Shown one piece after another: positions 1 to 13,700 of a DNA stretch of 13,700 nucleotides; within the stretch, counting starts at the first letter, position 1, and every line of letters begins with the position of its first letter. A program made the position numbers and the translations under genes. The notes under the pieces were generated by a model. The model was not told the DNA's origin, searched no databases, and saw only the letters and a program-made list of their open reading frames with translations. Origin of the DNA: Rhodanobacteraceae bacterium (GTDB lineage Bacteria; Pseudomonadota; Gammaproteobacteria; Xanthomonadales; SZUA-5); assembly GCA_003233535.1 (NCBI GenBank), contig QIMA01000086.1, positions 1 to 13,700 on the forward strand, given 5' to 3'.

Positions 1-2356
1 ACAGCTCGAAGTGCACGCTGACGGCGCCATTTCCAGCCTCTTCGGCCCAGAATTCGCCGGCCAAGATGGCTATTTCCACCAAGTGCGCATGCCGCAGCCA
101 CCGCTGCTGCTGGCTGATCGCGTGCTCGGCATCGAGGGCGCTGCTGGGAGCATGGGCAAGGGTCGAATCTGGACCGAAACCGATGTCGGCTCGCAGGACT
201 GGTATCTGCACCAGCAGCGGATGCCGGCCGGGGTGATGATTGAGGCCGGCCAAGCCGATCTGCTGCTGATTTCCTGGCTGGGCATTGACGCACTGAATCG
301 CGGCGAGCGCGTCTATCGTTTGCTCGGCTGTGAGCTGACCTATCACGGCGATCTGCCCAAGACCGACGACACACTACGCTTCGATATCCACATCGACAGC
401 CACGCCGCGCAGGGCGATGTGCGGCTGATGTTTTTCCACTACGACTCCCACACCCGCAGCGACACGGCGGCCGCGCGGCCGCAGCTGTCGGTGCGCGACG
501 GTCAGGCCGGCTTCTTCACTGCCGCCGAGCTGGCCGAATCGGCCGGCTGTTTGTGGAGCGCGGAGCAGCAGGAGATCAATCCTGAGCCGCGCCTAGATCC
601 GCCAGCGGTCGAGCTGGGTTCGGACGCGCTTACTCGCGAGCAACTCCAGGCCTATGCCGACGGTGATGCTTACGCGTGTTTTGGCGCCGGCTTTGAGTTC
701 GCTCGCACCCACACGCGCAGCCCAGGCATTCACGGCGAGCGCATGTTACTGCTCGATCGGGTCACTCAACTGGCAATCAACGGCGGCCCCTGGCAACGCG
801 GCTATTTGCGCGCTGAGCTGGACATAGACCCGAACCAGTGGTTCTTCGATGGCCACTTCAAGAACGACCCGTGCATGCCTGGCACGCTGATGTTCGAAGC
901 TTGCCTGCACGCGATGGCTATCTACATCGGCGCCTGCGGCTACACCCTGCGCCGCGACGGCTGGCGCTTTCAGCCGATCCCCGAACAGCCCTATCAGCTG
1001 CAGTGCCGCGGCCAAGTCACGCCGCAGTCCAAGCGGCTGATCACCGAAATCTTCGTCGAAGAACGCGGTGACGGTCCGGAACCCTATATCTACGCCGACT
1101 TGTTATGCACCGTCGACGGTCTGAAGGCCTTCCATGCGCGTCGCGTCGGCGTACAGCTGGTTCCCGACTGGCCGCTGGACGGACAGGCTCCAGTCAGCGA
1201 CGATTCGGGTCGCTCAGTGGCTGTGGTCAACGGCTTTCGCTTTGACCAGCAGGCCCTGTTGGCCTGCGCGCTGGGTCGACCATCAAATGCCTTCGGACCC
1301 ATGTACCAGCGCTTCGACGGTCCCACCCGCGTGGCTCGGCTGCCCAGCCCGCCTTACCACTTCATCAGCCGCATCGCCGAGATCGAAGGACCCATCGGCA
1401 AACTCAAAGCCGGCGCCCGCGTCGTTGCCGAATACGATTTGCCCGAAGACGTGTGGTATCTGGATCAAAACGGCTGCCGCAAGATGCCCTTCGCGGTGCT
1501 GTTGGAAGCCGCCCTGCAGCCCTGCGGCTGGCTGTCGAGCTACGTCGGCTCGGCACTGACGGTGGACGAGGAGCTGGGCTTCCGCAATCTCGACGGCGAC
1601 GGCGAAGTGCTGCTGGAACTGAGCGGAGGGGACGGCACCCTGCGTACCGAAGTCAGCCTGCTAGAAGTATCTGCCAGCGCCGGCATGATCATCGAAAAGT
1701 TCGCCGTTAGCTGCCGCCTAGGCGAGCGCGAAGTGTATCGATTGAACACGGTTTTCGGCTTCTTCCCGCCCGCAGCGCTGGCCGCCCAGGTCGGATTGCC
1801 GGTGAGCGATAGTCAGCGTGAACTGCTGCAGCGCGAGTCCAATCTAGAGCTTGATCTGCGCTCAGAGCCTGCCGCCTACTTTAACCCGCAACGGCCGCAG
1901 TTAGCGGGGACCATGCTGCGCATGATCGACCGTATCGAAGGACTCTGGCCAGAAACTGGCGAAGCCGGCCTGGGTCAAGCCCGCGCGATCAAAGATGTGG
2001 ACAGCAACGAGTGGTTCTTCAAGGCCCATTTCTTCCAAGATCCGGTACAGCCCGGATCCTTGGGACTGGAAGCCATGCTGCAAACGCTGCAGGCCTACTT
2101 GCTGCATCAGAACAAAGATGCGGGTATCGCCAGCCCGCGATTCGAGAGCATCGGCCTGCAACGCGCGCACCGCTGGCGCTATCGTGGTCAGGTGCTACCG
2201 CACCATCGCCAGGTGCACACCACCCTAGAACTCACCGATGAAGGACACGACGAACGCGGCTACTATGCGATCGCAGATGCCAGTCTTTGGGTGGATGGCC
2301 AACGAATTTATGAAGCCAGTGGTTTGGCGGTCCGTATTGTTAGCACCGGCGATTAG
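1..2356 (+). CDS. pfaC: PfaC-like PUFA/secondary-lipid synthase, C-terminal dehydratase region (5'-partial)
   Basis: This is the C-terminal part of a large multidomain synthase subunit. The frame is open through the left edge (first whole codon at base 2), so the GTG at 11 is probably internal; the usual N-terminal ketosynthase and chain-length-factor domains would lie outside. About 785 residues contain four FabA-type hot-dog folds, at roughly nt 60-520, 690-1170, 1280-1780 and 1890-2350. Folds 2 and 4 keep the dehydratase His motif (WFFDGHF, His codon 854-856; WFFKAHF, His codon 2027-2029), each followed by a DP-x-x-PG turn and an L/F-E-A helix. Folds 1 and 3 have WYL at the same place and no His. 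The layout is therefore two pseudo-dimeric dehydratase units, each a degenerate half plus an active half, as known for PfaC DH1-DH2. Such domains dehydrate 3-hydroxyacyl-ACP during cytoplasmic PUFA synthesis. The end product cannot be read from this part; a related secondary-lipid synthase is the alternative. Confidence 0.85.
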   Translation, partial: QLEVHADGAISSLFGPEFAGQDGYFHQVRMPQPPLLLADRVLGIEGAAGSMGKGRIWTETDVGSQDWYLHQQRMPAGVMIEAGQADLLLISWLGIDALNRGERVYRLLGCELTYHGDLPKTDDTLRFDIHIDSHAAQGDVRLMFFHYDSHTRSDTAAARPQLSVRDGQAGFFTAAELAESAGCLWSAEQQEINPEPRLDPPAVELGSDALTREQLQAYADGDAYACFGAGFEFARTHTRSPGIHGERMLLLDRVTQLAINGGPWQRGYLRAELDIDPNQWFFDGHFKNDPCMPGTLMFEACLHAMAIYIGACGYTLRRDGWRFQPIPEQPYQLQCRGQVTPQSKRLITEIFVEERGDGPEPYIYADLLCTVDGLKAFHARRVGVQLVPDWPLDGQAPVSDDSGRSVAVVNGFRFDQQALLACALGRPSNAFGPMYQRFDGPTRVARLPSPPYHFISRIAEIEGPIGKLKAGARVVAEYDLPEDVWYLDQNGCRKMPFAVLLEAALQPCGWLSSYVGSALTVDEELGFRNLDGDGEVLLELSGGDGTLRTEVSLLEVSASAGMIIEKFAVSCRLGEREVYRLNTVFGFFPPAALAAQVGLPVSDSQRELLQRESNLELDLRSEPAAYFNPQRPQLAGTMLRMIDRIEGLWPETGEAGLGQARAIKDVDSNEWFFKAHFFQDPVQPGSLGLEAMLQTLQAYLLHQNKDAGIASPRFESIGLQRAHRWRYRGQVLPHHRQVHTTLELTDEGHDERGYYAIADASLWVDGQRIYEASGLAVRIVSTGD

Positions 2357-2359
2357 CTG

Positions 2360-3037
2360 GTGAGCGCAGCAGCCGCACGCGCGCCGCTGATTCGCGTCGC
2401 CTCGGTGGCCGAAATGCTCGCTCAGGCGCCCGCCGACGCGCAGTCATGGCTATCGGCAAGCGAATGGCAGCGCAGCGGCAAACTGCACGCACCGCAGCGC
2501 CGCGAACACTACCTCGCAGGCCATTGGCTGCTACGCGTGCAGCTGGCCCGATTCGTCGACGGCCCAGTCGATCACTGGGACGTTGTCGACCGCCGCAGCC
2601 TGCCGCCGCTGGTGCGCGAACGTCCCGACCTGCACGTTTCGCTCAGCCACAGCGGTCCGTGGATCGCCTGCGCTGTCTCCGCGCAATCCATTGGTATTGA
2701 TCTGGAGCAGCGTCGCTCACGCGAAGCCCTGGCCAACTTCGATCAGCTGTTGCGTAATCCAGACGAAGCGCCCGGCTCGCTCGATCTACAAGCCTTACTG
2801 CGGCGCTGGGTGGTGAAAGAGGCCTTTATCAAGCGCGACTGCGGCAGCGCCCTGCCCGCGCGATTGGCCGAACTCAACGTTAGCCGCCAGAACGAACCCG
2901 CCGACTTGACCCTGTGGCAAACGGAGAGCTTTCTGCTCGGGACGATTGGCGAGGGCATTCACGGTGAGCCGGAGTGGCCCGCAGAGTGCGCGACTGCGCC
3001 GCCCGAGTATTGGAGAGTCGTCGATACCGCTGCGTAG
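2360..3037 (+). CDS. 4'-phosphopantetheinyl transferase, Sfp/PfaE type
   Basis: The 225-aa product has the Sfp-family signature: SLSHSG around His97, GIDLE with the presumed Mg-binding Asp114 and Glu116, and W-V-V-K-E-A at residues 150-155. The family transfers the phosphopantetheine arm of CoA to a serine of acyl-carrier domains, turning apo- into holo-synthase. The length is normal for the family. The GTG start lies 3 bp after the stop of the PfaC-like gene and no Shine-Dalgarno sequence is visible, so translational coupling is likely. This position makes the tandem carrier domains of the upstream PUFA-type synthase the probable substrate, the role called PfaE in PUFA clusters. Specificity cannot be read from sequence. 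The GTG start is favoured because it gives a family-like N-terminus immediately after the upstream stop. Confidence 0.9.
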   Translation: MSAAAARAPLIRVASVAEMLAQAPADAQSWLSASEWQRSGKLHAPQRREHYLAGHWLLRVQLARFVDGPVDHWDVVDRRSLPPLVRERPDLHVSLSHSGPWIACAVSAQSIGIDLEQRRSREALANFDQLLRNPDEAPGSLDLQALLRRWVVKEAFIKRDCGSALPARLAELNVSRQNEPADLTLWQTESFLLGTIGEGIHGEPEWPAECATAPPEYWRVVDTAA

Positions 3038-3052
3038 GTGCGCCTGCTCTTC

Positions 3053-3084
3053 GTAGGATGTGGTGAGCGAAGCGAACCGCATCG
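3053..3084. repeat. REP-like palindrome downstream of the PPTase gene
   Basis: An imperfect hairpin with arms GATGTGGT (3057-3064) and ACCGCATC (3076-3083), one G-U type mismatch, and an 11-base loop GAGCGAAGCGA. It sits 15 bp after the PPTase stop and is preceded by CGTAG. The GTAGG...GAGCGAAGCGAA layout resembles REP-type extragenic palindromes common in Gammaproteobacteria and often mobilised by RAYT transposases; that family assignment is from memory. No T-run follows, so it is not a classical intrinsic terminator, though it could stabilise the mRNA 3' end. Confidence 0.55.
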
Positions 3085-3145
3085 ATGGCCTATACACGCC
3101 ACCCCTCTCTCTACTGGGCCGTGGGCACTAGCCGCTGTGCCCTCT

Positions 3146-3327
3146 TAGCCCGGATATTTCATGAACTCGCGCGATGCTCGCGCAGGACATTGGTAGGCCA
3201 GTGGTTTTTCTGCAGGAGCGCCGGTGGTTTTTCAAAACGGGGTGGTTCATACACCCGACTGCGGAAAAATCGCTGGGCGATCAAGGGCCTAGCGAGGGCG
3301 CGTGAAGTTTATGAAACATCCGGGTTA
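3146..3327. repeat. Inverted-end (MITE-like) element, copy 1, 182 bp
   Basis: The ends form an imperfect inverted repeat: the left end reads TTAGCCCGGATATTTCAT (from 3145) and the right end, reverse-complemented, CTAACCCGGATGTTTCAT; the match continues inwards to AACT. Just inside the left end is a small hairpin, GCGCGA-TGC-TCGCGC. The outer ~50 bp on each side match copy 2 (8764-8912) closely, while the middle differs in length and sequence. There is no transposase gene, so this is a non-autonomous or decayed element. The inner edge of the right end contains the last four codons and the TAA stop of the minus-strand glycosyltransferase gene (stop at 3309-3311). I could not identify a target-site duplication. 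Confidence 0.75.
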
Positions 3328-4439
3328 GCTTCTACGACCTCCGCATACACCGCCAACGTCGCCTCCTGCATCGCCTCAATCGTCGGAATACTGGCGCGAT
3401 CAATCGCCTCTAGCTGCGGATCACTGAGCAAGCCACACGCGCGCTGAACGAGCATCGACTGGTCACTGAATTCGACGACACCCGGCGGATAGCTACGGCG
3501 TAGCTGCTCACCGACGCCGCCTAGATCCCAACCCAAAACCGGCCTGCCTTGATGCAAGGCTTCGGCAACCGTCCGGCCAAAGCTCTCGGGGCGATCAGAC
3601 AGCTGCAGCACCAGATCACTCACCGCGTAGACCTCGCGCACGTCGCTGCGGCTAGTCGTAGCTAGCCAGCATCCTTCCAGACCGAGTTCGCCAGCACGCC
3701 TGCGGAGTTCGTCCAAGTAGCGCTCCCGTCCCGGCTGATCCGCGCCCAGCAACAGTAGCCGCGCGTCCACGCCACGACCGCGCACTGCGGCCAATAGCTC
3801 TAGCGCCGTCGTGTGACCCTTCAGACGCGTGCCGCGGCCCGGCAAGGTCAGCAACTTCTCTCCGGCGAGCTGAGGAAACTCCGAACGAAAGTCGCTAATC
3901 CACGCGTCACTCGGCTGAAACTGGTGAGGAAAATCATCAGCCGACATCCCGCGCGGAATAACGCGTAAGCGCGATAGATCCAATCGCCGGTAGTTTTCTT
4001 GCAGATGGTTAGCGCTGGTTTGCGAGACCGCAATCACCCGCTCAGCGCGGGTCAGAATAGCGCTGTAGCGACTCACCGAATTCAATCCATGCACCGTGCT
4101 AACCGAGGCCGGCATCGATCGGCTGGCGGCGAAGTGAGCCAGCCATGCTGGCAAGCGCGAGCGCACGTGGAGCAGGTCTGGGTTCAGCCCGTCCAGCAAA
4201 CGCCGCAAGGGCCGAATCTGCAGCAGCGTGAGCAGTGACTTCTTAGCGATAGCCAAAGTGTGGTGCTCACTGCCCTCGGCGACGAGTTGTTCGACCAGCC
4301 TGCCGCCGGCTGAAATGACCACGGAGCGATGACCATGGGCGACCAGCGCACGGCCGATTTCCAGGGTCGACCGTTCCGCGCCCCCGGCTTGCATCTCGGG
4401 CAGCAGCTGAACGACTGTCCAAGGCGCCGTTGCCGTCAT
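3309..4439 (-). CDS. Family-4 (GT-B) glycosyltransferase, probable envelope polysaccharide/LPS type
   Basis: The 376-aa product has GT4 features. Near the N-terminus GGAERS-x-LEIGRAL is the glycine-rich acceptor-side loop. The C-terminal nucleotide-sugar-binding half includes the E-x7-E motif (Glu285 and Glu293, ESFGRTVAE) followed by GRPVLGWDLGGVGE. These enzymes transfer a sugar from an NDP- or UDP-sugar, usually on the inner membrane face during LPS or exopolysaccharide assembly; donor and acceptor cannot be told here. I chose the ATG at 4437-4439 because the protein begins family-like there (WTVVQLLPEMQAGGAE) and a longer upstream frame would run into the zinc-finger gene. The Shine-Dalgarno sequence is weak. 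It lies 58 bp downstream of that gene, probably in one operon. Its last residues (NPDVS) and stop codon come from repeat copy 1, so the native C-terminus may have been replaced. Confidence 0.85.
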   Translation of the reverse strand: MTATAPWTVVQLLPEMQAGGAERSTLEIGRALVAHGHRSVVISAGGRLVEQLVAEGSEHHTLAIAKKSLLTLLQIRPLRRLLDGLNPDLLHVRSRLPAWLAHFAASRSMPASVSTVHGLNSVSRYSAILTRAERVIAVSQTSANHLQENYRRLDLSRLRVIPRGMSADDFPHQFQPSDAWISDFRSEFPQLAGEKLLTLPGRGTRLKGHTTALELLAAVRGRGVDARLLLLGADQPGRERYLDELRRRAGELGLEGCWLATTSRSDVREVYAVSDLVLQLSDRPESFGRTVAEALHQGRPVLGWDLGGVGEQLRRSYPPGVVEFSDQSMLVQRACGLLSDPQLEAIDRASIPTIEAMQEATLAVYAEVVEANPDVS

Positions 4440-4497
4440 CGGCTGTTCACTAGTAACGCGGTCGGTGTGTGCACGGTCTGGTCTGGGCCAGCGGCGC

Positions 4498-4719
4498 TTA
4501 AGCTGCGTGAGAGTCTTGCTTGTCGAGCACGTAGATTGCGCCGCAATAGGGGCACTTCGATTCGCCGTGCGCCTCAATCGGCAGATAGACCCGCGGGTGC
4601 GAGTTCCACAAATCCATACCGGGCATCGGGCAAGACAGCGGCAGGTCAGCGACGCTCACCTGGTAGCGGTTCTCAGCATTTGCAGGAATCAACACGGAAG
4701 CAGAATCTACTCGGCTCAT
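4498..4719 (-). CDS. Small CHCC-type zinc-finger protein
   Basis: The 73-aa product carries a CHCC zinc-binding signature: Cys30 (LSCPMPG), His41 (W-N-S-HPRVYLPIE), Cys56 and Cys59 (KCPYCG). This matches the zinc-finger-domain family related to the NDUFS6 tail, widespread as roughly 60-75 aa proteins in Proteobacteria and often encoded beside ilvE or LPS glycosyltransferase genes. The four ligands and the HPRVYLP core are visible; the cellular role of the bacterial family is not well defined. Here it precedes the GT4 gene on the same strand, consistent with that usual neighbourhood. The ATG at 4717-4719 gives a typical N-terminus, though the ribosome-binding site is poor. In the 231 bp upstream I saw no firm promoter, only spaced GTTAGGC copies (4741 and 4790) of unknown meaning. 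Confidence 0.85.
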   Translation of the reverse strand: MSRVDSASVLIPANAENRYQVSVADLPLSCPMPGMDLWNSHPRVYLPIEAHGESKCPYCGAIYVLDKQDSHAA

Positions 4720-4950
4720 CGGGAACGAACTCGATCAGTGGTTAGGCGCTGGATTGTCTCGCGGATGGTGGAGCAGGGCAACGACGTGTTAGGCGTTAGG
4801 TAAAAGAGCCGACCAGCGTTTGGCGCGCATTACCAGCTAACTTGGGCTGCTCTGACTTAAAACCTAAAACGATTGACCCGACTTGCCCGGGGCCATCACA
4901 CGACCCGGTCGCTTGCAGGAGGCACTGCGTCGCGCTGATCGTGGAAAAAA

Positions 4951-5026
4951 TGGCGTCCCCACGGGGATTCGAACCCCGGTCGCCGCCGTGAAAGGGCGGT
5001 GTCCTAGGCCTCTAGACGATGGGGAC
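4951..5026 (-). tRNA. tRNA-Glu (UUC)
   Basis: The reverse strand folds as a 76-nt tRNA with encoded CCA. The acceptor arm is GTCCCCA/TGGGGAC with discriminator G, the T arm contains GGTTCGAATCC, and the anticodon loop CTTTCAC carries UUC. It lies 20 bp downstream of tRNA-Ala on the same strand and probably shares its transcript. A run of six T follows the CCA directly (4945-4950, minus strand), with no separate hairpin before it. Confidence 0.97.
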
Positions 5027-5046
5027 GCTGATTTTTTACTCTTCGA

Positions 5047-5122
<76 letters not shown>

Positions 5123-5137
5123 AAATCGAAGCCGCGC

Positions 5138-5166
5138 AGAATAAACGGAGATTGGCGGATGGTCAA
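5138..5166 (-). promoter_or_regulatory. Sigma70-type promoter of the tRNA-Ala/tRNA-Glu operon
   Basis: On the minus strand, TTGACC (5161-5166) and TATTCT (5138-5143) are separated by exactly 17 bp, 15 bp upstream of tRNA-Ala. A GC-rich stretch (GCGCGGC) follows the -10 box, a discriminator type typical of stringently controlled stable-RNA promoters. That control is inferred from the base composition. Confidence 0.8.
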
Positions 5167-5222
5167 GTTTTTTCTATTGCGGGTCGCGCTCGGTGGTTCA
5201 TGGGAACCGTCGACTAAGTGCC

Positions 5223-5324
5223 AGTAGCCAGAAAAGCGTACCAGCCCTCAAATTCCCGGACCCCAGGCTTTTTCTTTACTGGAACTGGCTACTAGTACTG
5301 GAACTCGCTCTTTCTACCTATACT
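5223..5324 (+). promoter_or_regulatory. Putative rlmJ promoter region with paired direct and inverted repeats
   Basis: Upstream of rlmJ are two exact copies of TACTGGAACT (5277-5286 and 5296-5305), 19 bp apart (about two helical turns). A 9-bp inverted pair, AGTAGCCAG (5223-5231) and CTGGCTACT (5285-5293), overlaps them. A TATACT box at 5319-5324 could be a -10 element 30 bp before the start codon; no good -35 hexamer stands at 16-18 bp, which would fit an activator-dependent promoter. All of this is sequence pattern only. Confidence 0.35.
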
Positions 5325-5353
5325 GCGAACACGCCGTTAACCGAGTAGCCCCG

Positions 5354-6271
5354 TTGAACTATCGTCATGCTTATCACGCGGGCAACTTTGCCGACGTGCT
5401 CAAACACGCCACCTTAGTGGGCTTGCTTGAAGCGCTGACCGTCAAGCAAACGCCGCTGTGCTACTACGACACGCACGCCGGGTCCGGCAGCTATGAACTG
5501 GCCGGGCCACAGGCCCGGGCTACCGGCGAAGCTGCCAGCGGGATTCGTCCTTTGCTTGAGGCACAGCAATTGCCCAGTTCGCTGCACGTCTACCTCAACT
5601 TGGTGCGCTCGCTGAATTCCACACCCAACGCCGGCGGCGTGCTCAGCACCTACCCTGGGTCGCCTCTGATTGCCGCCAGCATGCTGCGCGAAAACGACCG
5701 ATTGGTGCTGTCTGAACTGCAATCGGACGAGGCCGCCGCGCTGCGCGATCTATTCGCCACCGATTCGCGAGTCGGTGTGCACAAGCGCAATGGCTACGAG
5801 GCGCTACCGGCAATGCTGCCTCCACCTGAGCGTCGCGGCTTGGTATTGATGGATCCGCCTTTTGAGGCGCAGGGCGAAGAATTCGACACAATCTTGACCT
5901 GCCTGCAAAAATCCTACGCGCGCTGGCCTACCGGGGTCTACGCACTGTGGTACCCGATCAAGCTGCACGAGACCGTCGCTCGCTTTCACCGCAAGTTTGA
6001 GGCAACCGGCATACCGAAGGTCTTAGTCGCCGAGCTTTGTCTGCACGCAGACGACACCGCTCTGCGCCTGAACGGCTGTGGCATGCTGCTGATTAACCCG
6101 CCCTACCGGTTTGAGAAGACGCTGGAGAGTATTCTGCAGTCGCTCGCACATCACTTAAAACAGGGACGTTACGGTCGAACCACCGTGCGCTGGTTGAGCG
6201 GAGAACAAAAAGGCCCACCGGGTCTAAGGCCCAAACGCCCGGGCCCTCATCCGCGCAGCACGAAGCGCTAG
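5354..6271 (+). CDS. rlmJ: 23S rRNA (adenine(2030)-N6)-methyltransferase RlmJ
   Basis: The N-terminus NYRHAYHAGNFADVLKH is the RlmJ hallmark. It is followed by a SAM-binding stretch (DTHAGSGSYEL, about residues 39-49) and the N6-adenine methyltransferase motif DPPF with Asp167. The enzyme methylates A2030 of 23S rRNA before or during 50S assembly, in the cytoplasm. The start is the TTG at 5354, because homology to the family begins immediately after it and no ATG or GTG fits nearby. The core ends near TTVRWLSGEQ; about 20 further residues rich in Pro, Lys and Arg form an extra tail over a GC-rich stretch, so the usual ~280-residue protein is lengthened to 305. It is transcribed away from the tRNA operon, from its own upstream region. 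Confidence 0.95.
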   Translation: MNYRHAYHAGNFADVLKHATLVGLLEALTVKQTPLCYYDTHAGSGSYELAGPQARATGEAASGIRPLLEAQQLPSSLHVYLNLVRSLNSTPNAGGVLSTYPGSPLIAASMLRENDRLVLSELQSDEAAALRDLFATDSRVGVHKRNGYEALPAMLPPPERRGLVLMDPPFEAQGEEFDTILTCLQKSYARWPTGVYALWYPIKLHETVARFHRKFEATGIPKVLVAELCLHADDTALRLNGCGMLLINPPYRFEKTLESILQSLAHHLKQGRYGRTTVRWLSGEQKGPPGLRPKRPGPHPRSTKR

Positions 6272-6373
6272 CGCGGAAACGCTGCCGGCTGGCGGCATCG
6301 CGAAGCACTCACCGGTGAACCGATAACCTGCGCGGCGTGAAAGCTGTAGGCACGAATTCTGGGAGTAACAACC

Positions 6374-8107
6374 ATGCAACACTCACGTAACTGGCACGCC
6401 GGTGCCATTGTCGGGACACTACTCGCCACGTCCTTTCTTACTGTCGGGGTAAACACGATGGCTGCTGATCGCATCACCGAGCTACCCTTCAGTACGCGAT
6501 CAGAAGTTATCGCCCAAAACGGCATGGCGGCGACCAGCCATCCGTTAGCGACGCAAATTGCCCTGGACGTACTAAAACGGGGTGGCTCGGCGGTCGATGC
6601 GGCGATTGCCGCCAACGCCGCGTTAGGCTTAATGGAGCCCACCGGCAACGGCATAGGCGGCGACTTGTTCGCGATCGTTTGGGATCCAACCAGTGCCAAA
6701 CTACACGGCTACAATGGCTCTGGCCGCTCGCCTGCCGCGCTGACCCTAGCGGAGTTGCAGCGCCGAGGACTGACGGCGATGCCGCCCTTCGGCCCCCTGC
6801 CGGTCACCGTGCCCGGCGCAGTTGACGGCTGGTTTGCCCTGCATGAGCGCTTCGGCAAGCTGCCGATGAAGCAGGTGCTCGAACCGGCCATCGGCTACGC
6901 TGAGAACGGCTTTCCAGTCACCGCAGTGATCGCCCACTATTGGCAACTTTCGGTGCCGCGCTTGGCCGCTTATCCCGGCTTCAGTGAGCAGTTCACGATC
7001 GACGGAGAGGCGCCGAAGAAGGGGCAAATTTGGACCAATCAAAATTTAGCAAACACCCTGTCGCAGATTGCCGACGGCGGCCGGGATGCTTTCTACAAGG
7101 GTGATATCGCGCGCACCATAGATACCTACTTCAAAGCCAATGACGGCTTCCTCAGCTACGAGGACATGGCCAGTCATCGCGGTGAATGGGTCCAGCCAGA
7201 GTCAGCAAACTACCGTGGCTATGACGTCTGGGAACTGCCGCCTAACGGTCAGGGCATCGCTGCGCTGCAGATACTCAACATTCTCGAAGGCTATGAGCTA
7301 TCCAAGCTCAGCTACGACGATCCGCACTATGTGCATCTGTTCGTCGAGGCAAAAAAGCTGGCCTTCGCCGATCGCGCACGCTTCTATGCCGACCCAGCCT
7401 TCGTCAAGGCACCGGTGGCGGAATTGTTGTCCGACGAATACGCCAATCAGCGGCGTCAGCTGATCGACCCGAAACGCGCCGCGCGCAGCGTTGATCCTGG
7501 CAACCCAGCGCTGAGCGAGGGCGACACGATCTACCTCACCACGGCAGACAGCAACGGCATGATGGTGTCGCTGATCCAGTCCAATTTTCGCGGCATGGGT
7601 TCAGGCATGGCGGCGCCCGGGCTGGGTTTCATTTTTCAAGACCGAGGCGAGCAATTCGTGCTCAAGGCTGATCATCCGAACAGCTACGCGCCGCGCAAGC
7701 GCCCGTTTCACACCATCATTCCTGCATTCATCACCAAGGACGGCAAGCCGTGGATCAGCTTTGGCCTGATGGGTGGCGCGATGCAGCCGCAGGGCCACGC
7801 ACAGATCGTCATCAATCTGGTCGATTTCGGCATGAACTTGCAGGAGGCGGGCGACGCGCCGCGCATACACCACACCGGATCTACCGAACCGGCAGGACAA
7901 AATGCGGCAATGACCGATAGCGGCACGCTCAATCTGGAGAGCGAATTCCCGTACAGTACCGTGCGCGATTTAATTTCGCGCGGACACCGGGTGCAGTTTG
8001 CGGTCGGGCCTTACGGTGGTTACCAAGCGATTATGCGCGACCCTAGCAGCGGTGTTTACTACGGCGCCAGTGAATCACGTAAGGACGGCCACGCCGCCGG
8101 ATACTAA
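6374..8107 (+). CDS. ggt: Gamma-glutamyltransferase (gamma-glutamyltranspeptidase), exported
   Basis: The 577-aa precursor matches the Ntn-hydrolase GGT family along its length. It starts with a Sec signal peptide (basic N-terminus, hydrophobic GAIVGTLLATSFL, likely cleavage near NTMAA), so the enzyme is periplasmic or secreted. Early family motifs are HPLAT, GGSAVDAAIAAN and GNGIGGD. The autocleavage nucleophile is Thr385 in GDTIYLTTAD; self-processing there would give a large subunit and a small one of about 193 residues. Further small-subunit landmarks are GSGMAAPG and FGLMGGAMQPQGH. GGT cleaves or transfers the gamma-glutamyl group of glutathione and related compounds; some relatives act on other gamma-glutamyl amides or on cephalosporin precursors. 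GGGAGT (6361-6366) is a good ribosome-binding site before the ATG. The next gene is a membrane-anchored redoxin, 87 bp downstream. Confidence 0.93.
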   Translation: MQHSRNWHAGAIVGTLLATSFLTVGVNTMAADRITELPFSTRSEVIAQNGMAATSHPLATQIALDVLKRGGSAVDAAIAANAALGLMEPTGNGIGGDLFAIVWDPTSAKLHGYNGSGRSPAALTLAELQRRGLTAMPPFGPLPVTVPGAVDGWFALHERFGKLPMKQVLEPAIGYAENGFPVTAVIAHYWQLSVPRLAAYPGFSEQFTIDGEAPKKGQIWTNQNLANTLSQIADGGRDAFYKGDIARTIDTYFKANDGFLSYEDMASHRGEWVQPESANYRGYDVWELPPNGQGIAALQILNILEGYELSKLSYDDPHYVHLFVEAKKLAFADRARFYADPAFVKAPVAELLSDEYANQRRQLIDPKRAARSVDPGNPALSEGDTIYLTTADSNGMMVSLIQSNFRGMGSGMAAPGLGFIFQDRGEQFVLKADHPNSYAPRKRPFHTIIPAFITKDGKPWISFGLMGGAMQPQGHAQIVINLVDFGMNLQEAGDAPRIHHTGSTEPAGQNAAMTDSGTLNLESEFPYSTVRDLISRGHRVQFAVGPYGGYQAIMRDPSSGVYYGASESRKDGHAAGY

Positions 8108-8194
8108 GCACACGCATCGCATGCGTCGCCCCTGCCCGCGCGCAGCGTGGATAGAGATCGCCGATGGCAACCTCGCTGCAAAGGATAGCTACAG

Positions 8195-8767
8195 ATGTTC
8201 GCTCGCTTTATCAGCCTGATCGGCGCCGTCGTCATGACCGTGCTGCTGTTCTACGCCGCCTTGCCCAATTTGTTCACCGACCGAGGGGTACAGACCGGGC
8301 CGATCAATGAACGTCGAGCGCCGCCCTTTGACGCTGACGGAGAGTGGTTTTGGATCAACACCGAGCCAATGCGCTGGAGCGACTTGCGCGGCCAAGTAGT
8401 GATGCTGATGGTGTGGAACTTCGGCTGTGAAAACTGCATTCAATCACTGCCGTGGGTCGAATCGCTGCAGCGCAGTTACGGCGCCCAAGGATTTCGCGTG
8501 ATTGGCGTCCACGCGCCGGAGTTTGAGCCGCAACGCGACCGCAAATCCATTGGCGAGGCGATAGAACGGCTGGAAGTTAAGTTTCCGGTGCTGCTCGACA
8601 ACCGATTTCACTATTGGCGCGCGCTGGAGAATCGTTATTGGCCGAGCTTCTACTTGGTCGACAAGACGGGAATGCTGAGCGAACGTTTTGTTGGCGAAAC
8701 TCAGATCGGCGACGCCGGTGACAAGCTTATACGTAGCGCGATTGAACCGTTGCTCGCTCAGCCTTAA
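8195..8767 (+). CDS. Membrane-anchored thioredoxin-like (TlpA/DipZ C-domain type) protein
   Basis: The 190-aa protein begins with one hydrophobic segment (about residues 5-28), an uncleaved anchor or signal, so the rest should face the periplasm. The soluble part has a thioredoxin fold: LRGQVVMLMVWNFGCENC with the redox pair Cys78-Cys81, then IGVHAPEFEP, FPVLLDN and a cis-Pro-type segment WPSFYLVDKTG. WINTEPMRWSDLRG resembles the periplasmic domain of DipZ proteins and TlpA-like redoxins. A thiol-disulfide role, as reductant or alkyl-hydroperoxide-type redoxin, is likely; the substrate is unknown. AAGGA (8181-8185) lies 9 bp before the ATG. It follows ggt in the same direction and may be co-transcribed. 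Its TAA stop (8765-8767) is part of the left end of repeat copy 2, so the original 3' end could be altered. Confidence 0.85.
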   Translation: MFARFISLIGAVVMTVLLFYAALPNLFTDRGVQTGPINERRAPPFDADGEWFWINTEPMRWSDLRGQVVMLMVWNFGCENCIQSLPWVESLQRSYGAQGFRVIGVHAPEFEPQRDRKSIGEAIERLEVKFPVLLDNRFHYWRALENRYWPSFYLVDKTGMLSERFVGETQIGDAGDKLIRSAIEPLLAQP

Positions 8768-8912
8768 CCCGGATATTTCATGAACTCGCGCGATGATCGC
8801 GCAGGACATTGATTGCCCAGTGGTTTTTTCGAAGGAGCGGTGTAGTGGTTCAAGTCGCTGGGCGATCAAGGGCCTAGCGAGGGCGCGTGAAGTTTATGAA
8901 ATTCCGGGTTAA
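8764..8912. repeat. Inverted-end (MITE-like) element, copy 2, 149 bp
   Basis: The left end TTAACCCGGATATTTCAT and the reverse-complemented right end TTAACCCGGAATTTCAT differ by one missing base. Both flanks match copy 1 almost base for base: on the left the hairpin GCGCGA-TGA-TCGCGC and CAGGACATTG, on the right GCTGGGCGATCAAGG through GCGCGTGAAG. The stem of the small hairpin is kept while its loop differs from copy 1. The centre is about 33 bp shorter than in copy 1. There is no internal gene. The TAA of the left end serves as the stop codon of the upstream redoxin gene. Confidence 0.75.
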
Positions 8913-8993
8913 GGGCACAAACGGACGGTCAGAAGTGCAGTGCGGGCCAAGCACAGGTAAGCTGCGCAGCTCTCCGACTGCCTGCAAATACCC

Positions 8994-10742
8994 ATGCCTT
9001 GTCTAAACCTCTTGCAACGCGTCGTTGCGCTCACCGTATTTTGCCTGTGGGCACCTTACGGACTGGCTCAAATCGTCACGCCAATTAGTCAGTCGCGGCT
9101 GGCGCCTATCCCTGATCAAGCAGCCGACCTAAAACCGTTGCAGCTAGGCCAAACTCGGGTCGACTACTCGGCAATGAGCCCGATCCAAAGAGCCGAGTTC
9201 GTGAACCTGATGGCGAACCTACCGGCCGACTTAAGCCTGCGCGCGTGGAATGGTGAGGGCAGCAAGGACTCGGTTGAGCAACTGCAAATCGATCGTCTAC
9301 AGATCGCGCTCGACACTGCCCAAACGGACGGCGTTTGGTGGTTTGAGTACGTCAACAACGGACGCAGCGCTCGGCATGCCCGTTGGCAAATTTCTCGGCT
9401 ACCTTTCCCCGAAGATCTCAGTAGTTGGCGCGTTCCGGCTGGCTTGGTATCTCAGGGAAAAGTTCCGAATGTGCTGCGCGGAACTCAGGCCAATCGCTTC
9501 AAACTGCAAATCGGCAATTTCTTACTTGGCGCCAATGCAGACAAGCTTGATCTGCTCAACTCACCCGGGCAGACCGTGACCAGCGCGCTCCACAGCGAGT
9601 TCCCTGCGAGCAGACTCTATCTTCGAGTTTTGGTGCTTGGACGCAATGGCAAGCCTGTCACACGGCCGTCGAACACGGTGACCATTGACGTAGATCCCGT
9701 CACCGACATGGCTGCTGCGCACGCTGCGCTGCCGCAAATTCAGGGAACTCCAGAGCTACAGCCAGCGCGCGCAGCGGCAGCCGACTACCGCTGTCACTTT
9801 ATCGCCACGCGGGCGTTTGTTTTGCCCACGGCGAATACGGAATCAACCGTAGAGACTGGAGATGCGATCAATGCCTGCTTACCGCCACCTGTGGGATTAC
9901 TCGGCAGGTTCGAAAAGCACTTCGGCTCGGCGACCCAGCTAGACACGCTTATTCGCGATTGGGATGCAAACCGCTATGTTTTTGCGCGGGACGAAACCTT
10001 CGAGGCAGTTTTCCGAAATTTCGGTGGACCTGAGGGTGGCTGCAATTCGCACTGCCGGCAGGCCATGCAGCTTGCCCTGGACCGCGGAGCCGCAGCGCTG
10101 GGCATTCCCCGCGGGAGCAGTGTGCCTGATCCGAATATCAATGCGGGTCTGGAGTATTTGCGCTATCTCATAATCGATGCTCTGCGGATCAGCGATTTGC
10201 CTGAGGTCGTACATGAACAGGCGTCTACCAAGGCGATAACAGTCTTCCGCGACGCCATGCTTAGCCCCGGCCATGCCCCGCCGCCGTTTGAGCCGAGCCT
10301 AGATCAACTTAGCGCAGCGCCACGCTTAACGCTCACCCTGAGCGCCGGTGAAAGCGAGACCACCGCAACCTATCTGCAGATCCGTGACCCCAGCCGTAAC
10401 CCGCGCGTGCAAAACACCATCATTCCAGTTCCGGCTATTCCTGCGGGCAAGCAGATCAGCGTTCCGATCAAGCTGCCTTCGACCGACATTCCGGAAGCAT
10501 CGGCGACCGCTACGCTGGCGGCAATTGGAAAACTCACCGACGGGATTAACGACCCCGGTCAGTTGCTGCTGCGTGTCGATAGTCAGTTGCGTGATACGCA
10601 GATACGCCAAGCCAGATCCGCCAAGCAAGCTCGGCGTGGCAACTACGATCTAGAGTTGGCCTGGCGCAGCGCCGAAGGAATCGTCGTTAGTGCAATGCGG
10701 CTGCGCTGTAAAGCGAGTAACGGCAAGTGCCGCATTCGTTAG
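8994..10742 (+). CDS. Secreted protein of unknown function, 582 aa
   Basis: I do not recognise this protein. It has a clear Sec signal peptide (LLQRVVALTVFCLWAPYGLAQ, probable cleavage after GLA), which supports the ATG at 8994 despite a weak ribosome-binding site. The mature part shows no catalytic motif I can name. A first region (about residues 30-230) looks like a mixed alpha/beta domain with many polar residues. Around 260-400 there is a helix-rich segment with four cysteines (YRCHF, NACLPP, GGCNSHCRQAM), possibly two disulfides. From about 440 onward it reads like a beta-sandwich (LTLTLSAGESETTATYLQIRD...ISVPIKLPST). Two more Cys close the protein (RCKASNGKC). The gene stands alone, between repeat copy 2 and repeat copy 3, convergent with the WS/DGAT gene. 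A 12-bp perfect palindrome (8960-8971) lies 22 bp before the start. The reading frame is long and bias-consistent, so the gene is real. Confidence 0.8.
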   Translation: MPCLNLLQRVVALTVFCLWAPYGLAQIVTPISQSRLAPIPDQAADLKPLQLGQTRVDYSAMSPIQRAEFVNLMANLPADLSLRAWNGEGSKDSVEQLQIDRLQIALDTAQTDGVWWFEYVNNGRSARHARWQISRLPFPEDLSSWRVPAGLVSQGKVPNVLRGTQANRFKLQIGNFLLGANADKLDLLNSPGQTVTSALHSEFPASRLYLRVLVLGRNGKPVTRPSNTVTIDVDPVTDMAAAHAALPQIQGTPELQPARAAAADYRCHFIATRAFVLPTANTESTVETGDAINACLPPPVGLLGRFEKHFGSATQLDTLIRDWDANRYVFARDETFEAVFRNFGGPEGGCNSHCRQAMQLALDRGAAALGIPRGSSVPDPNINAGLEYLRYLIIDALRISDLPEVVHEQASTKAITVFRDAMLSPGHAPPPFEPSLDQLSAAPRLTLTLSAGESETTATYLQIRDPSRNPRVQNTIIPVPAIPAGKQISVPIKLPSTDIPEASATATLAAIGKLTDGINDPGQLLLRVDSQLRDTQIRQARSAKQARRGNYDLELAWRSAEGIVVSAMRLRCKASNGKCRIR

Positions 10743-10790
10743 TGTGGTGCCCCAGCAGTTGATCTCGTCTCTGATGGACAAAGTCTGAGA

Positions 10791-10823
10791 CTAGCCCGGA
10801 TATTTCATAAACTTCCGGGCTAG
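10791..10823. repeat. Reduced (ends-only) copy 3 of the inverted-end element; possible bidirectional 3'-end hairpin
   Basis: A perfect 10-bp inverted repeat, CTAGCCCGGA (10791-10800) and TCCGGGCTAG (10814-10823), encloses a 13-base loop TATTTCATAAACT. The left arm plus loop equals the left terminus of copies 1 and 2, and the right arm equals their right terminus, so this looks like the two ends joined without the interior. It sits between convergent genes, 48 bp after one stop. The TAG stop of the WS/DGAT gene (10820-10822, minus strand) lies inside its right arm. No T-run follows on either strand, so terminator function is uncertain. Confidence 0.7.
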
Positions 10824-12619
10824 CGGCTTACCGGTTTCAGCGTAGCCACCTTGCGTCGTCGCGGCGCTGCCTTGGTCTTGCTGGCGTCCGTCTTGGGTGC
10901 CGCAGCGGCTGCCGGCTTCGCTGGGGCTTTCGGTTTAGCTGTCGCTCTGGGTTTCGTCGCAGCCCTAGGCTTCACTGCGGCTTTCGGCTTTGCGACCGCA
11001 GCCTGGGCCGAGGGCCTCGCACTTGCCGCTGACCGGGCCTTTGTCGACCCTGCTGACTTCGCTACAGTTTTAGTCGATGAGCGCACCGTTGAAGTCTTTG
11101 CCGGGGACTTTGCTTTAGCGGCGGCTCGAGGCTTGGTCGTGCTGCTAGTTGAGCGAGCCAGCTTCCTGCGAGGCGCTTTGACCGGCTTGGCAGCAGCAGC
11201 CGCGAGCGCCTCTTCAAGCTCATCCAGCGCCTCTCCGGTGTAGGTTGCAATACGCTGCATGTGCGGCAGCGTGTCGCGACAGCCGGTAAAGCCAAAGGCC
11301 AGCTTGCCGCCATAGCTTTGGCAGGTGATGTTCAACGCCTGACCGTGCGAAACCAGCGACACTGGATAGGTGGCCTCCATCTTCGCGCCGCGAAAATACA
11401 GCTCCTCTTCGGGGCCAGGAACGTTGGAGATGGTGATATTGAACATCGGCCGCATTCGCCCGCCGACACCGGTGACTAGGCTCATCATGTACGGTGCCAT
11501 CAGCACCATGGTGTACTGCGTCATCGCCTGGCGCGGCAGACTCTGCACATGATCTTTGGCCAATCTGGTTGAGGCTGTAATGGCGTGCAACCGCTCGAGT
11601 GGATCATCCACATCGGTAGCCAGGGTGGAAATAATGAAGGTGATGGCGTTACCCGTACCCTCGTCGTCCTTGGGCCGCACCGACACCGGAATACCCGTTG
11701 TCAGCGACTTCTCCGGCAGCGCGTCGAGCTCTAGCAAAAAGCGTCTGAGTGCGCCACTGCAGATCGCTAATACCACATCATTGAGCGTTGCGCCGGCACC
11801 GTGGGCGAGGTTGCGCAAGCGGTCAATCGCGTAGATCTGTGTGGCAAAGCGGCGCTGCCCTTTGATCCGACCGTTGAAGATTGAGCTGGGCGTATCGAAC
11901 GGCACCATCATCTTGTCTTTCTTGGCGACGATACCCCCGAGCATGCTGCCGAAGGCACGCACCACGCCGGGAACGCTGGTGACCTGCTCGCGAATCAGCC
12001 CCCAGGCCTCGGCCACGGCGTGCGCCGTAGTCGGCGCCGCAGCAGGAGGACTCTTGCTGAGCTTGCGCTTGAGTTTGCCCTTAGCCTTGCCGCCGGCGCC
12101 TATGGACCAAAATGCCGGCAGCCTGCGGCTTTCCTCACGGTCGGTAGACATCGACCGGACCAGCATTTTCATGCCGCTGATGCCGTCAATCAGGGAATGG
12201 TGCATCTTGGTGTAGAAGGCGAATCGCCGGTTCTCCAAACCCTCAATCAGCGAGAACTCCCACGGCGGTCTGGTCAGGTCCAACGGTTGACTATGCAGTC
12301 GCGCGATCAACTGACCGAGTTCGCGTTCCCCACCTGGCTGCGGCAGCGCTGCGTGACGAACATGGTGCTCCAGATCAACCTCGTCGGTGCTTTCCCAGGC
12401 TGGCATCAAGCCCTTGATGCTCATCTGCCTGAGTTTTTGATTCCACGGCGCAGCAAACGAGTTGGTCCCACGAAACTCGGCCATAAGATCGAGAAAGAAA
12501 TCTTCGGGCGCATCGTCCGGTAACTGGAAGATAGCCAGCCCGCCGACGTGCATCGGGGTTTCTCTGGACTCGACCAACAGCCAAGAAGCATCCAGCGGAT
12601 TGAGTGATTTGGTCGTCAT
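10820..12619 (-). CDS. WS/DGAT family acyltransferase with histone-H1-like C-terminal tail
   Basis: The 599-aa protein is a wax ester synthase/acyl-CoA:diacylglycerol acyltransferase. Visible family motifs: N-terminal PLDASWLLVE, PPWEFSLIEGL, the catalytic HHxxxDG (His140, His141, Asp145), the GATLNDVVLA segment, and SNVPGPEE in the C-terminal half. The family esterifies fatty alcohols or diacylglycerol with acyl-CoA, giving wax esters or triacylglycerol stored in membrane-associated lipid bodies; which of these cannot be told. The ATG at 12617-12619 is preferred to an upstream start at 12712 because the family sequence begins there and GAAGG stands 5 bp before it. The last ~120 residues after the catalytic region are low-complexity Lys/Ala/Pro/Ser/Thr, unlike the ~460-residue family norm. 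The stop codon lies in repeat copy 3. The gene diverges from the small secreted ORF at 12770 across 150 bp. Confidence 0.93.
   Translation of the reverse strand: MTTKSLNPLDASWLLVESRETPMHVGGLAIFQLPDDAPEDFFLDLMAEFRGTNSFAAPWNQKLRQMSIKGLMPAWESTDEVDLEHHVRHAALPQPGGERELGQLIARLHSQPLDLTRPPWEFSLIEGLENRRFAFYTKMHHSLIDGISGMKMLVRSMSTDREESRRLPAFWSIGAGGKAKGKLKRKLSKSPPAAAPTTAHAVAEAWGLIREQVTSVPGVVRAFGSMLGGIVAKKDKMMVPFDTPSSIFNGRIKGQRRFATQIYAIDRLRNLAHGAGATLNDVVLAICSGALRRFLLELDALPEKSLTTGIPVSVRPKDDEGTGNAITFIISTLATDVDDPLERLHAITASTRLAKDHVQSLPRQAMTQYTMVLMAPYMMSLVTGVGGRMRPMFNITISNVPGPEEELYFRGAKMEATYPVSLVSHGQALNITCQSYGGKLAFGFTGCRDTLPHMQRIATYTGEALDELEEALAAAAAKPVKAPRRKLARSTSSTTKPRAAAKAKSPAKTSTVRSSTKTVAKSAGSTKARSAASARPSAQAAVAKPKAAVKPRAATKPRATAKPKAPAKPAAAAAPKTDASKTKAAPRRRKVATLKPVSR
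10823..11190 (-). other. Low-complexity Lys/Ala/Pro-rich tail of the WS/DGAT protein
   Basis: About 122 residues made mainly of Ala, Lys, Pro, Arg, Ser and Thr, with no Asp/Glu-rich or hydrophobic stretch except an occasional Asp. Repeating units such as AxKPRAxxKPRA and KPKAPAKPAAA recall histone-H1-like bacterial proteins and the AlgP/Hc1-like tails. It is strongly basic and likely disordered. The underlying DNA is correspondingly repetitive and may vary in length among strains. An antisense open frame over it is a composition artefact. Confidence 0.8.
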
Positions 12620-12769
12620 ATGCGCCTTCTTTGAGTCGGTTGCACTTTGGGAACGGCTAATCGCAAACCGCGGATCTAGGGACACACTAGGCGAATCACC
12701 CCACCTCTGCAAAGTTATACCGCTTAGGCGAAACTGTGGCCCTGCCGATCCCCCTAATCGGAGTACTCA

Positions 12770-13081
12770 ATGACGAAACTGCATTCTACTCTCTGCGCCC
12801 TGTGTCTTGCGCTGCCCGCTCAGGCCCGCGAATTGCAATTCTCCAAAGACCGCTTCGGCCGCGGTGATTGGCGTATCCGCTTCGATCTGAACGCGGTCAT
12901 GGGCAGCGATGGTCTGTGGCACACCGTTCGCTATCCATCAGCGGAGGGTGAGGAACGCCTGTGGGCCACGATCAATACGCTGCGCCCCCGGCTAGCTGAG
13001 CCCTCTACTCGGGCGCTTCCGGACCCCAGGCCGGATCGTAGTCAATCGCCATATCCGCGTAATTGCCGGCGACAGTCTTGA
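12770..13081 (+). CDS. Small secreted hypothetical protein, 103 aa
   Basis: I do not recognise this protein. A good ribosome-binding site (GGAG at 12760-12763, 6 bp before the ATG) and a credible signal peptide (HSTLCALCLALPAQA, cleavage before REL) support a real start. The mature part up to about residue 72 (ELQFSKDRF...RLWATINTL) looks natural. The last 27 residues are Pro/Arg/Ser-rich and lie entirely antisense to the end of the convergent TPR gene (overlap 13005-13081), which suggests they are not ancestral. The gene may have lost its original 3' end by deletion and read through into flanking DNA. The opposite case, a genuine overlap, is possible. Function unknown. Confidence 0.5.
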   Translation: MTKLHSTLCALCLALPAQARELQFSKDRFGRGDWRIRFDLNAVMGSDGLWHTVRYPSAEGEERLWATINTLRPRLAEPSTRALPDPRPDRSQSPYPRNCRRQS

Positions 13082-13700
13082 ACTGATTGTGTTCGAAGCC
13101 CAGCGCGCCACGTAGTATGCGCAGCGCATAACGGTAGTGCGCACCGGCCTTGGCGTAGTCGCCTTTGGCCTCGTAGGACATGGCGAGGACATTGAACGAC
13201 AACCCCTTGATCTCAGGCAGGGTGGCGGAACGGTCGATCGCCTCACGGGCCAATTCGATGGCCTGTTCATAATCGCTGAGCCAGTAGCGGTTGATCGCCC
13301 AGTCCTTCACTGACTCTGCCGTCTCGGGGTCATCGATCTGCCGCCTGATCGCCACCGCCTCGGCCAACATCGGGTCGGCGCGCTTGTATTGTTTATTGTT
13401 GACCAACAACGAACCGAGTTGAGCGAGCGTTACCGCTAGGTCAGCGCTCTGCTTGCCTAGCGTTTTGCGCTCGATTTCGGCGCAGCGCGTGTAGGCGTAT
13501 TCGGCTTCCTGCATCTGGCCCATTTCGGCCTGAACGTGGCCAAGGTTAAACCAAGTTGCGGCGGCCGTAGCGGATTCGGCACTGTCGCTGCTGGCGAGCA
13601 AATCCAGGCCGCGTTGATAGAATTTTCGCGCCGCGGTCAACTGGTCGGTCTGGTATAGGGCCCGACCTAGCTGATTGTATAGATCGGCTCGGTCAGCAGC
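13005..13700 (-). CDS. TPR-repeat protein, C-terminal part (5'-partial)
   Basis: The minus-strand frame is open to the right edge of the window: codons upstream of the possible TTG at 13640 continue a TPR helix (DLYNQLGRALYQTDQL), so the start lies outside. At least five tetratricopeptide-like units are visible, for example WFNLGHVQAEMGQMQEAEYA, LGSLLVNNKQYKRADPMLAE, DYEQAIELAREAI and VLAMSYEAKGDYAKAGAHYR. TPR arrays form superhelical protein-binding scaffolds; the partner is unknown. The array with 40-42-residue spacing and long-A-helix units resembles the tail of TPR-containing signalling proteins such as serine/threonine kinases or ATPases, but no such domain is in the window. The stop TAG (13005-13007) lies within the convergent small ORF. 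A weak nested hairpin (GCGCCC 12982-12987 with GGGCGC 13011-13016) surrounds the stop. Confidence 0.85.
   Translation of the reverse strand, partial: AADRADLYNQLGRALYQTDQLTAARKFYQRGLDLLASSDSAESATAAATWFNLGHVQAEMGQMQEAEYAYTRCAEIERKTLGKQSADLAVTLAQLGSLLVNNKQYKRADPMLAEAVAIRRQIDDPETAESVKDWAINRYWLSDYEQAIELAREAIDRSATLPEIKGLSFNVLAMSYEAKGDYAKAGAHYRYALRILRGALGFEHNQFKTVAGNYADMAIDYDPAWGPEAPE

Follow-up and report, generated by a model that had tools for sequence, protein, structure and literature searches.

The 13,700-nt window analyzed here (contig QIMA01000086.1 of the Rhodanobacteraceae assembly GCA_003233535.1, positions 1 to 13,700; contig C53 of the 606 in this 3.08-Mb genome, which is about 81% complete) carries three copies of a short palindromic repeat, designated A, B and C. 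Each copy touches or overlaps the end of a protein-coding gene, i.e. of a family 4 glycosyltransferase, a redoxin/AhpC-TSA protein and a WS/DGAT acyltransferase, respectively (Table 1). As detailed below, these repeats are very probably miniature inverted-repeat transposable elements (MITEs) derived from an insertion sequence (IS) of the IS1380 family that inserts at YTAR tetranucleotides, most of their coincidence with stop codons probably resulting from this targeting together with selection.

Table 1 Repeat copies, flanking tetranucleotides and adjoining genes in the window
Feature	Position	Strand	Remarks
Left target duplication TTAG, copy A	3145..3148		identical to 3325-3328
MITE copy A, 176 bp, full-length imperfect palindrome	3149..3324	+	both ends found
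Right target duplication TTAG, copy A	3325..3328		identical to 3145-3148
Glycosyltransferase family 4	3309..4439	-	Pfam; stop TAA 3309-3311 within copy A
Redoxin/AhpC-TSA protein	8195..8767	+	Pfam; stop TAA 8765-8767 = target site
Left target duplication TTAA, copy B	8764..8767		identical to 8909-8912; 8765-8767 = redoxin stop
MITE copy B, 141 bp, full-length palindrome	8768..8908	+	both ends found
Right target duplication TTAA, copy B	8909..8912		identical to 8764-8767
Left target duplication CTAG, copy C	10791..10794		identical to 10820-10823
MITE copy C, 25-bp remnant (CCCGGATATTTCATAAACTTCCGGG)	10795..10819	+	both ends found
Right target duplication CTAG, copy C	10820..10823		10820-10822 = WS/DGAT stop TAG, - strand
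WS/DGAT acyltransferase	10820..12619	-	Pfam, NCBIfam TIGR02946; stop TAG 10820-10822 = target site

Anatomy and distribution of the repeat

All three copies open with an exact 19-mer, CCCGGATATTTCATRAACT (at 3149, 8768 and 10795), and share the left end CCCGGATATTTCATRAA. Together with an abundance in the genome far beyond chance, this confirmed that the three copies named in the original prediction are real. Their right ends are imperfect, reading CCCGGATGTTTCAT in copy A, one base fewer in copy B and only CCGGG in copy C. In silico RNA folding indicated near-perfect full-length hairpins for copy A with its duplications (-100.9 kcal/mol, z -9.8) and for copy B (-78 kcal/mol, z -8.2), and a short hairpin for copy C (z -5.5), in line with the proposal of a mobile, hairpin-bearing element. 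A covariance-model search of the window against Rfam gave no match at the copies, with only two tRNAs reaching the threshold. Copies of 25-35 bp, barely more than two CCCGG ends between equal CTAG words, were observed for copy C and at two further loci (L388, 12113-12143; L089, 2496-2530), and are perhaps slippage deletions of the palindrome.

Each window copy lies between identical tetranucleotides, namely TTAG (A), TTAA (B) and CTAG (C). CTAG and TTAA are palindromic, such that direct and inverted repeats of them look alike. CTAA and TTAG are not and therefore distinguish the two: where one of these words stood on both sides, 23 copies had direct and 4 had inverted repeats (six sets of loci). 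Equal YTAR words flanked 109 of 193 two-ended copies, and in a genome of the same family (G006) the flanks were identical in 39 of 42. YTAR is thus a 4-bp target duplication that lies outside the element. The terminus first proposed, TWRCCCGG.., was accordingly correct in its CCCGG-type end, which the copies do share, but had fused this end with a leading YTAR that belongs to the target. At 25, 141 and 176 bp, the window copies are too short to encode a transposase, and they combine terminal inverted repeats, target duplications and many dispersed copies, as is characteristic of MITEs, with copy C retaining a right arm of only 5 bp.

Allowing up to three mismatches, the 19-mer matched the window genome 212 times in forward and 219 times in reverse orientation, and the reversed pattern, used as a control, had 0 matches; the fullest genomes contain about 200-430 ends each. 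Many of the roughly 100 places listed in the window genome are no more than 100-odd bases away from where a contig stops, and the breaks in this assembly are thus probably also due to the repeat. Two-ended copies in this genome were most often 160-161 bp (10 of 27) or 55 bp (5 of the same 27) long, with a median pairwise identity of 0.90 among 15 copies of 155-165 bp; in G006, 33 of 42 measured 246 bp. The five 55-bp copies (e.g. L180 on contig C21, 8757-8811) are short palindromes in which the left end faces itself; four of them have a YTAR word at either flank, and in three the two words are equal.

At up to two mismatches, the terminus occurred in 7 of 41 genomes, every one from the family of the window, and in none of the 32 genomes from elsewhere in the order; a degenerate version matched 8 of the 9 genomes from the family. 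When one genome per species was scanned for the exact terminus plus YTAR, at least 99 stretches were obtained, and the matches listed included Delta- and Gammaproteobacteria, Nitrosomonadales, Magnetococcales, Verrucomicrobiota, Planctomycetota and Acidobacteriota. BLAST searches of copy B against plasmid and phage sequences and of the copy consensus against Escherichia coli genomes gave no match; a 32-base terminus hit 15 plasmid records (E up to 10), with a query coverage below 80% in each case, and one stretch of the viral contigs matched.

Copies and the ends of genes

The stop codons of the three neighboring genes lie at the positions originally given for them, but the view that each gene ends inside the element holds for the glycosyltransferase and fails for the other two. 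The TAA of the glycosyltransferase is located 16 nt inside copy A, its C-terminal residues NPDVS being encoded by the duplication and the element. Joining the flanks to restore the empty site yields 11 further residues, KRAQRLVPTAQ, after EVVEA in place of NPDVS, and a product ending in EVVEAKRAQRLVPTAQ. The glycosyltransferases of the two same-genus relatives end in EVLGASASSQFQ and ELLGNPQATVIAS, i.e. in tails similar in length and different in sequence. In this case, the element replaced the end of the gene. The TAA of the redoxin gene, by contrast, takes up all but the first base of the left TTAA of copy B, and the TAG of the WS/DGAT gene sits on the minus strand in the right CTAG of copy C; being part of the duplicated target, both stops pre-date the insertion. 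Indeed, the WS/DGAT gene of a same-genus relative devoid of the element (G001) ends in ATVKPVKR-CGC-TAG, compared with ATLKPVSR-CGC-TAG in the window. The C-terminal tail of the WS/DGAT protein (10820-11240, minus strand) is long and rich in Ala, Lys and Pro, and the tails of relatives differ.

To place copies relative to genes, we excised them by script, predicted genes on the rejoined sequence from codon usage (with a custom rather than a published caller) and compared each target with every other YTAR there; many of the stretches had been picked because they hold copies. Requiring a left YTAR retained 34 of 36 copies of the window genome, including the three in the window. Fifteen of these targets were stop codons, 17 were intergenic and 2 lay in genes (other YTAR sites: 226, 930 and 3769), with copies at both convergent and tandem 3′ ends. 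The corresponding numbers for the 42 targets in G006 were 7, 26 and 9 (other sites: 86, 455 and 723). If about half of all copies look this way, three of three would be expected in roughly one case in eight, and the original remark that chance hardly accounts for the window's arrangement is overstated.

We next pooled 121 insertions with equal YTAR duplications from five genomes and 93 other loci of mixed species, counting sites repeated at 54 bases once; this requirement leaves out 80 of 201 complete copies, whose duplications were unequal or non-YTAR. The mixed-species loci (6 of 99 were dropped for overlap with the fetched genomes) were found via the exact YTAR terminus, which slightly favors copies at which a stop codon preserves the YTAR. 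Insertions fell at stops (34), within 50 bp downstream (17), at 51-150 bp (22), further away (13), facing gene starts only (20) and in genes (15), with 625, 776, 1055, 1452, 1435 and 9121 other YTAR sites in the same classes, and CTAG was the commonest target (77 of 121). The 34 targets that are exactly a stop codon compare with 15.5 expected from non-coding YTAR sites, in support of the proposal that copies occur at gene 3′ ends more than expected. In a Mantel–Haenszel analysis stratified by genome and tetranucleotide, stops were enriched over intergenic YTAR sites (odds ratio (OR) 2.96, P = 3e-7) and over YTAR within 50 bp of a gene end (OR 2.06, P = 0.023), and coding insertions were depleted (OR 0.10). 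The excess differed between sets, with targets at stops numbering 11 of 27 in the mixed species (OR 7.4; 0 within 50 bp), 11 of 27 in the window genome (OR 3.6), 2 of 5 in G050 (OR 10.6, P = 0.048), 3 of 15 in G042 (OR 2.1, P = 0.51), 1 of 8 in G047 (OR 1.3, P = 1) and 6 of 39 in G006 (OR 1.26, P = 0.81).

Single ends were analyzed on stretches of the five genomes, provided that they had at least 150 bp of flank and a usable gene. A stop lay in the duplication at 56 of 405 ends versus 452 of 7217 other sites (OR 2.4) and, set against the first 50 bp, the ratio was 56:46 versus 452:598 (OR 1.6, P = 0.028). The stop was inside the element at 15 ends, in 12 cases at +16. No copy among the 149 two-ended ones had both duplications serving as stops. 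Among YTAR sites up to 50 bp from gene ends in the window genome, 211 of 443 are themselves stops. Restricting the five-genome analysis to well-supported genes gave 19 of 78 targets at stops versus 10.3 expected (P = 0.006), and 19 of 38 versus 16.7 expected (P = 0.28) when matched within 50 bp of a gene end. No motif in the flanking bases was common to the three sets compared; only in the mixed species was C more frequent directly before YTAR (0.45 versus 0.22).

Relationship to IS1380-family elements

Toward identifying a parent, 57 open reading frames (ORFs) near unpaired ends were collected and 39 of them scanned with Pfam, one of which had PF13701. One of the stretches from the species-wide scan, on a Noviherbaspirillum malthae contig, borders a transposase. 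Its locus-cut piece matched this domain with E 4.6e-78, and the whole protein matched the NCBIfam IS1380 equivalog NF033539 (E 1.4e-113), identifying it as an IS1380 DDE transposase. The element consists of CCCGAATATTTCATGAG at its left end, the 461-aa transposase gene and GTTCATGAAATATCCGGG at its right end, between two CTAG words; its ends escaped the automatic repeat search, which demanded five identical first bases, and were established separately. The transposase start codon lies within the left inverted repeat (..TTTCATGAG.., L173 1501-1519). ORFs of two long two-ended candidates (L083, L052) were of host type by eye, the candidate transposase ORF at L112 was a PDZ/peptidase gene, and the IS701-type transposase domain PF13546 was found in none of 9 genomes from the family.

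The comparison was extended to six annotated, plasmid-borne IS1380 elements. The Acidovorax element has ends CCCGGATATTTCAC and CTAG duplications, the ISPosp7 type carries variants of this end in CTAG, and ISPa33, ISMaq4 and Halomonas types end in CCCGGATTTCTCAT with duplications of CTAA or CTAG (ISPa33: equal CTAA or CTAG at 5 of 6 sites). The ends of the window MITEs match those of this family, the ISPa33, ISMaq4, ISPosp7 and N. malthae types sharing with them the terminal CCCGGATATTTCAT, CCCGGATTTCTCAT or a close variant; the target duplication also agrees, as seen from CTAG/CTAG around the N. malthae and Acidovorax elements. Like the window copies, IS1380 elements mostly have equal YTAR duplications and sometimes sit on stop codons: a LysR-type gene (named by eye) upstream of the N. 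malthae element (G041) ends in its CTAG, and the TAA of bphD lies within the CTAA duplication of ISPa33 on plasmid pKF715A (L416 538-541). They differ in encoding a transposase and in measuring about 1.56-1.63 kb, whereas the window copies are non-coding and 25-176 bp long. On two Shewanella plasmids (L421, L425 1501-1516), seemingly at the same site, an annotated gene runs 16 nt into ISPa33 to its stop, the same inward position as that of most element-internal stops in the MITEs. The IS1380 family is otherwise known for moving resistance genes; here, it is linked to a repeat that occurs in several phyla and reaches hundreds of copies in some genomes.

The window repeat represents a known kind of element, a bacterial MITE with a parent IS. 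REP/BIME sequences are likewise palindromic, extragenic and high in copy number; they are not known to carry a 4-bp target duplication, unlike the window copies. RUP, Correia/NEMIS, ERIC, YPAL and QMITE2 are also small, non-coding, hairpin-forming and repeated, but have other ends, another parent and targets described as TA or variable rather than YTAR. Similar arguments have been used to derive RUP from IS630-Spn1 (PMC2229807), and QMITE2 is placed mainly in 3′ untranslated regions (PMC10969869). The ends of piggyBac elements often begin with CCC, and the duplicated 4-bp target is TTAA or, rarely, TTAG or CTAA; IS1380 is the outgroup of the piggyBac tree (PMC10813416). We regard this resemblance (CCC ends, TTAA duplication) as a lead only; TTAA predominates in piggyBac and CTAG in the MITEs studied here. 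None of the literature matches listed, which mostly did not cover subscription papers and had ISfinder outside their scope, dealt with an IS1380-derived MITE or stop-codon targeting by IS1380, and a text search of papers found neither half of the terminus.

Origin of the stop-codon association

Our favored account builds on the ends, the duplications, the copy number, the placement statistics, the IS1380 elements with such ends and the one relative that has the stop and no element. The MITEs would be short, palindromic, non-coding IS1380 derivatives that are presumably moved in trans by the DDE transposase. This enzyme would insert into YTAR, with the frequent use of CTAG probably being its own property, and duplicate the four bases. 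As YTAR is closed under reverse complement and contains TAR, a stop, on either strand, many non-coding YTAR sites near gene ends are stops. Insertion at a stop would do no harm, since the gene retains a complete stop in the duplicate next to it, and insertions inside genes would be removed by selection. Some insertions near the 3′ end and in another frame might persist since that frame is closed by the element, in most cases with a stop 16 nt inside. With YTAR sites near gene ends so often being stops and coding insertions being lost, the transposase would need no search for stop codons, and most of the pattern would reflect YTAR targeting plus loss of harmful insertions. The pile-up of some bacterial MITEs at gene ends would thus have a simple reason, namely a target word that is a stop on either strand and is rebuilt by duplication.

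Several observations weigh against this account. Of the 193 two-ended copies, 84 lack equal duplications; 39 of the 193 have two different YTAR words, 4 have inverted ones and 41 a non-YTAR word on a side, possibly through mutation, recombination between copies or chimeric assembly. An Azotobacter IS1380 is flanked by unequal CTAC/CTAA, one ISPa33 site (Shewanella) by TTAG/CTAG, and for IS1247 the published duplication is 5 bp (PMC3281130). In the same-genus genome G002, the WS/DGAT gene ends in KPVKS-TGA, and the redoxin (68% identical, without the element) ends two residues earlier on TGA, such that neither ortholog shares the stop and the redoxin neither confirms nor refutes an ancestral TAA. 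Finally, PF13701 had no match in the window genome, although MITE membership does not require the parent transposase, and a search of nine genomes (the window's, five of the family, three of the order; G006-G008 were not searched) gave one sub-threshold fragment, in G005; in the 23 genomes with the terminus, a set picked for holding it, 11 matched, 8 over the cut-off. Given the lack of a match in the window genome, its copies are probably relics, or were moved by a transposase that has been lost, is missing from the assembly or is too diverged.

The original prediction held that the element is tolerated at gene ends because it brings its own stop codon. The glycosyltransferase and the 15 five-genome ends with an internal stop fit this idea, as would the reading frames into the usual left end, all of which close within about 30 nt as read from the sequence. 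Against it stand the 56 non-coding ends of the same stretches whose stop lies in the duplicated target and so existed before insertion, and the stop of the element-free G001 WS/DGAT gene. The latter is the one case in which the originally proposed refutation, a relative lacking the element yet ending alike, was borne out; the G002 orthologs do not decide. The target duplications refute it as a general rule, which leaves it improbable: that a gene terminates within a repeat does not show its stop codon to have come from that repeat. Site-directed insertion, also suggested there, is upheld with respect to YTAR, but not for stop codons as such, the excess over nearby YTAR being small or absent. 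Whether the transposase itself, or some host factor acting where transcripts terminate, favors stops or the region just downstream beyond the need for YTAR bears on the same excess. The stratified ORs and the mixed-species loci, with 11 of 27 at stops and none in the next 50 bp, speak for such a preference, but G006 showed no excess, strict gene calls near 3′ ends reduced it to 19 versus 16.7, and no flanking motif was common to the three sets, the raised C being confined to the mixed species. We consider this rather unlikely, and give a similarly low probability to IS1380 sparing stops by design, i.e. to near-neutral gene-end insertion having evolved across phyla with a true stop preference over neighboring YTAR; some residual preference, mainly in the mixed-species set, may nevertheless exist.

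Retention of 3′-end copies for a useful hairpin, e.g. as a terminator or stabilizer of mRNA 3′ ends as proposed for REP-like repeats, would agree with the strong folds and with copies at convergent and tandem 3′ ends, but 20 of the 121 pooled copies face gene starts only, and we doubt that it explains the pattern. YTAR duplications are also a feature of the IS5 and IS701 groups. A parent from another such family is highly improbable, as matching ends bound IS1380 transposases and the IS701-type domain was absent from the family genomes searched; no search for IS5-type transposases was made. Descent from IS1380 with insertion at YTAR hence remains our preferred reading.

As for other features of the window, a second repeat (AGTTCCAGTAGCCAG type) lies at 5217-5315, and a repeat of this type also contains the TAG stop of the glycosyltransferase ortholog in G002 (L305). 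A 582-aa protein encoded at 8994-10742 has no match in Pfam or NCBIfam, and genes for tRNA-Glu and tRNA-Ala lie at 4951-5122 on the minus strand.

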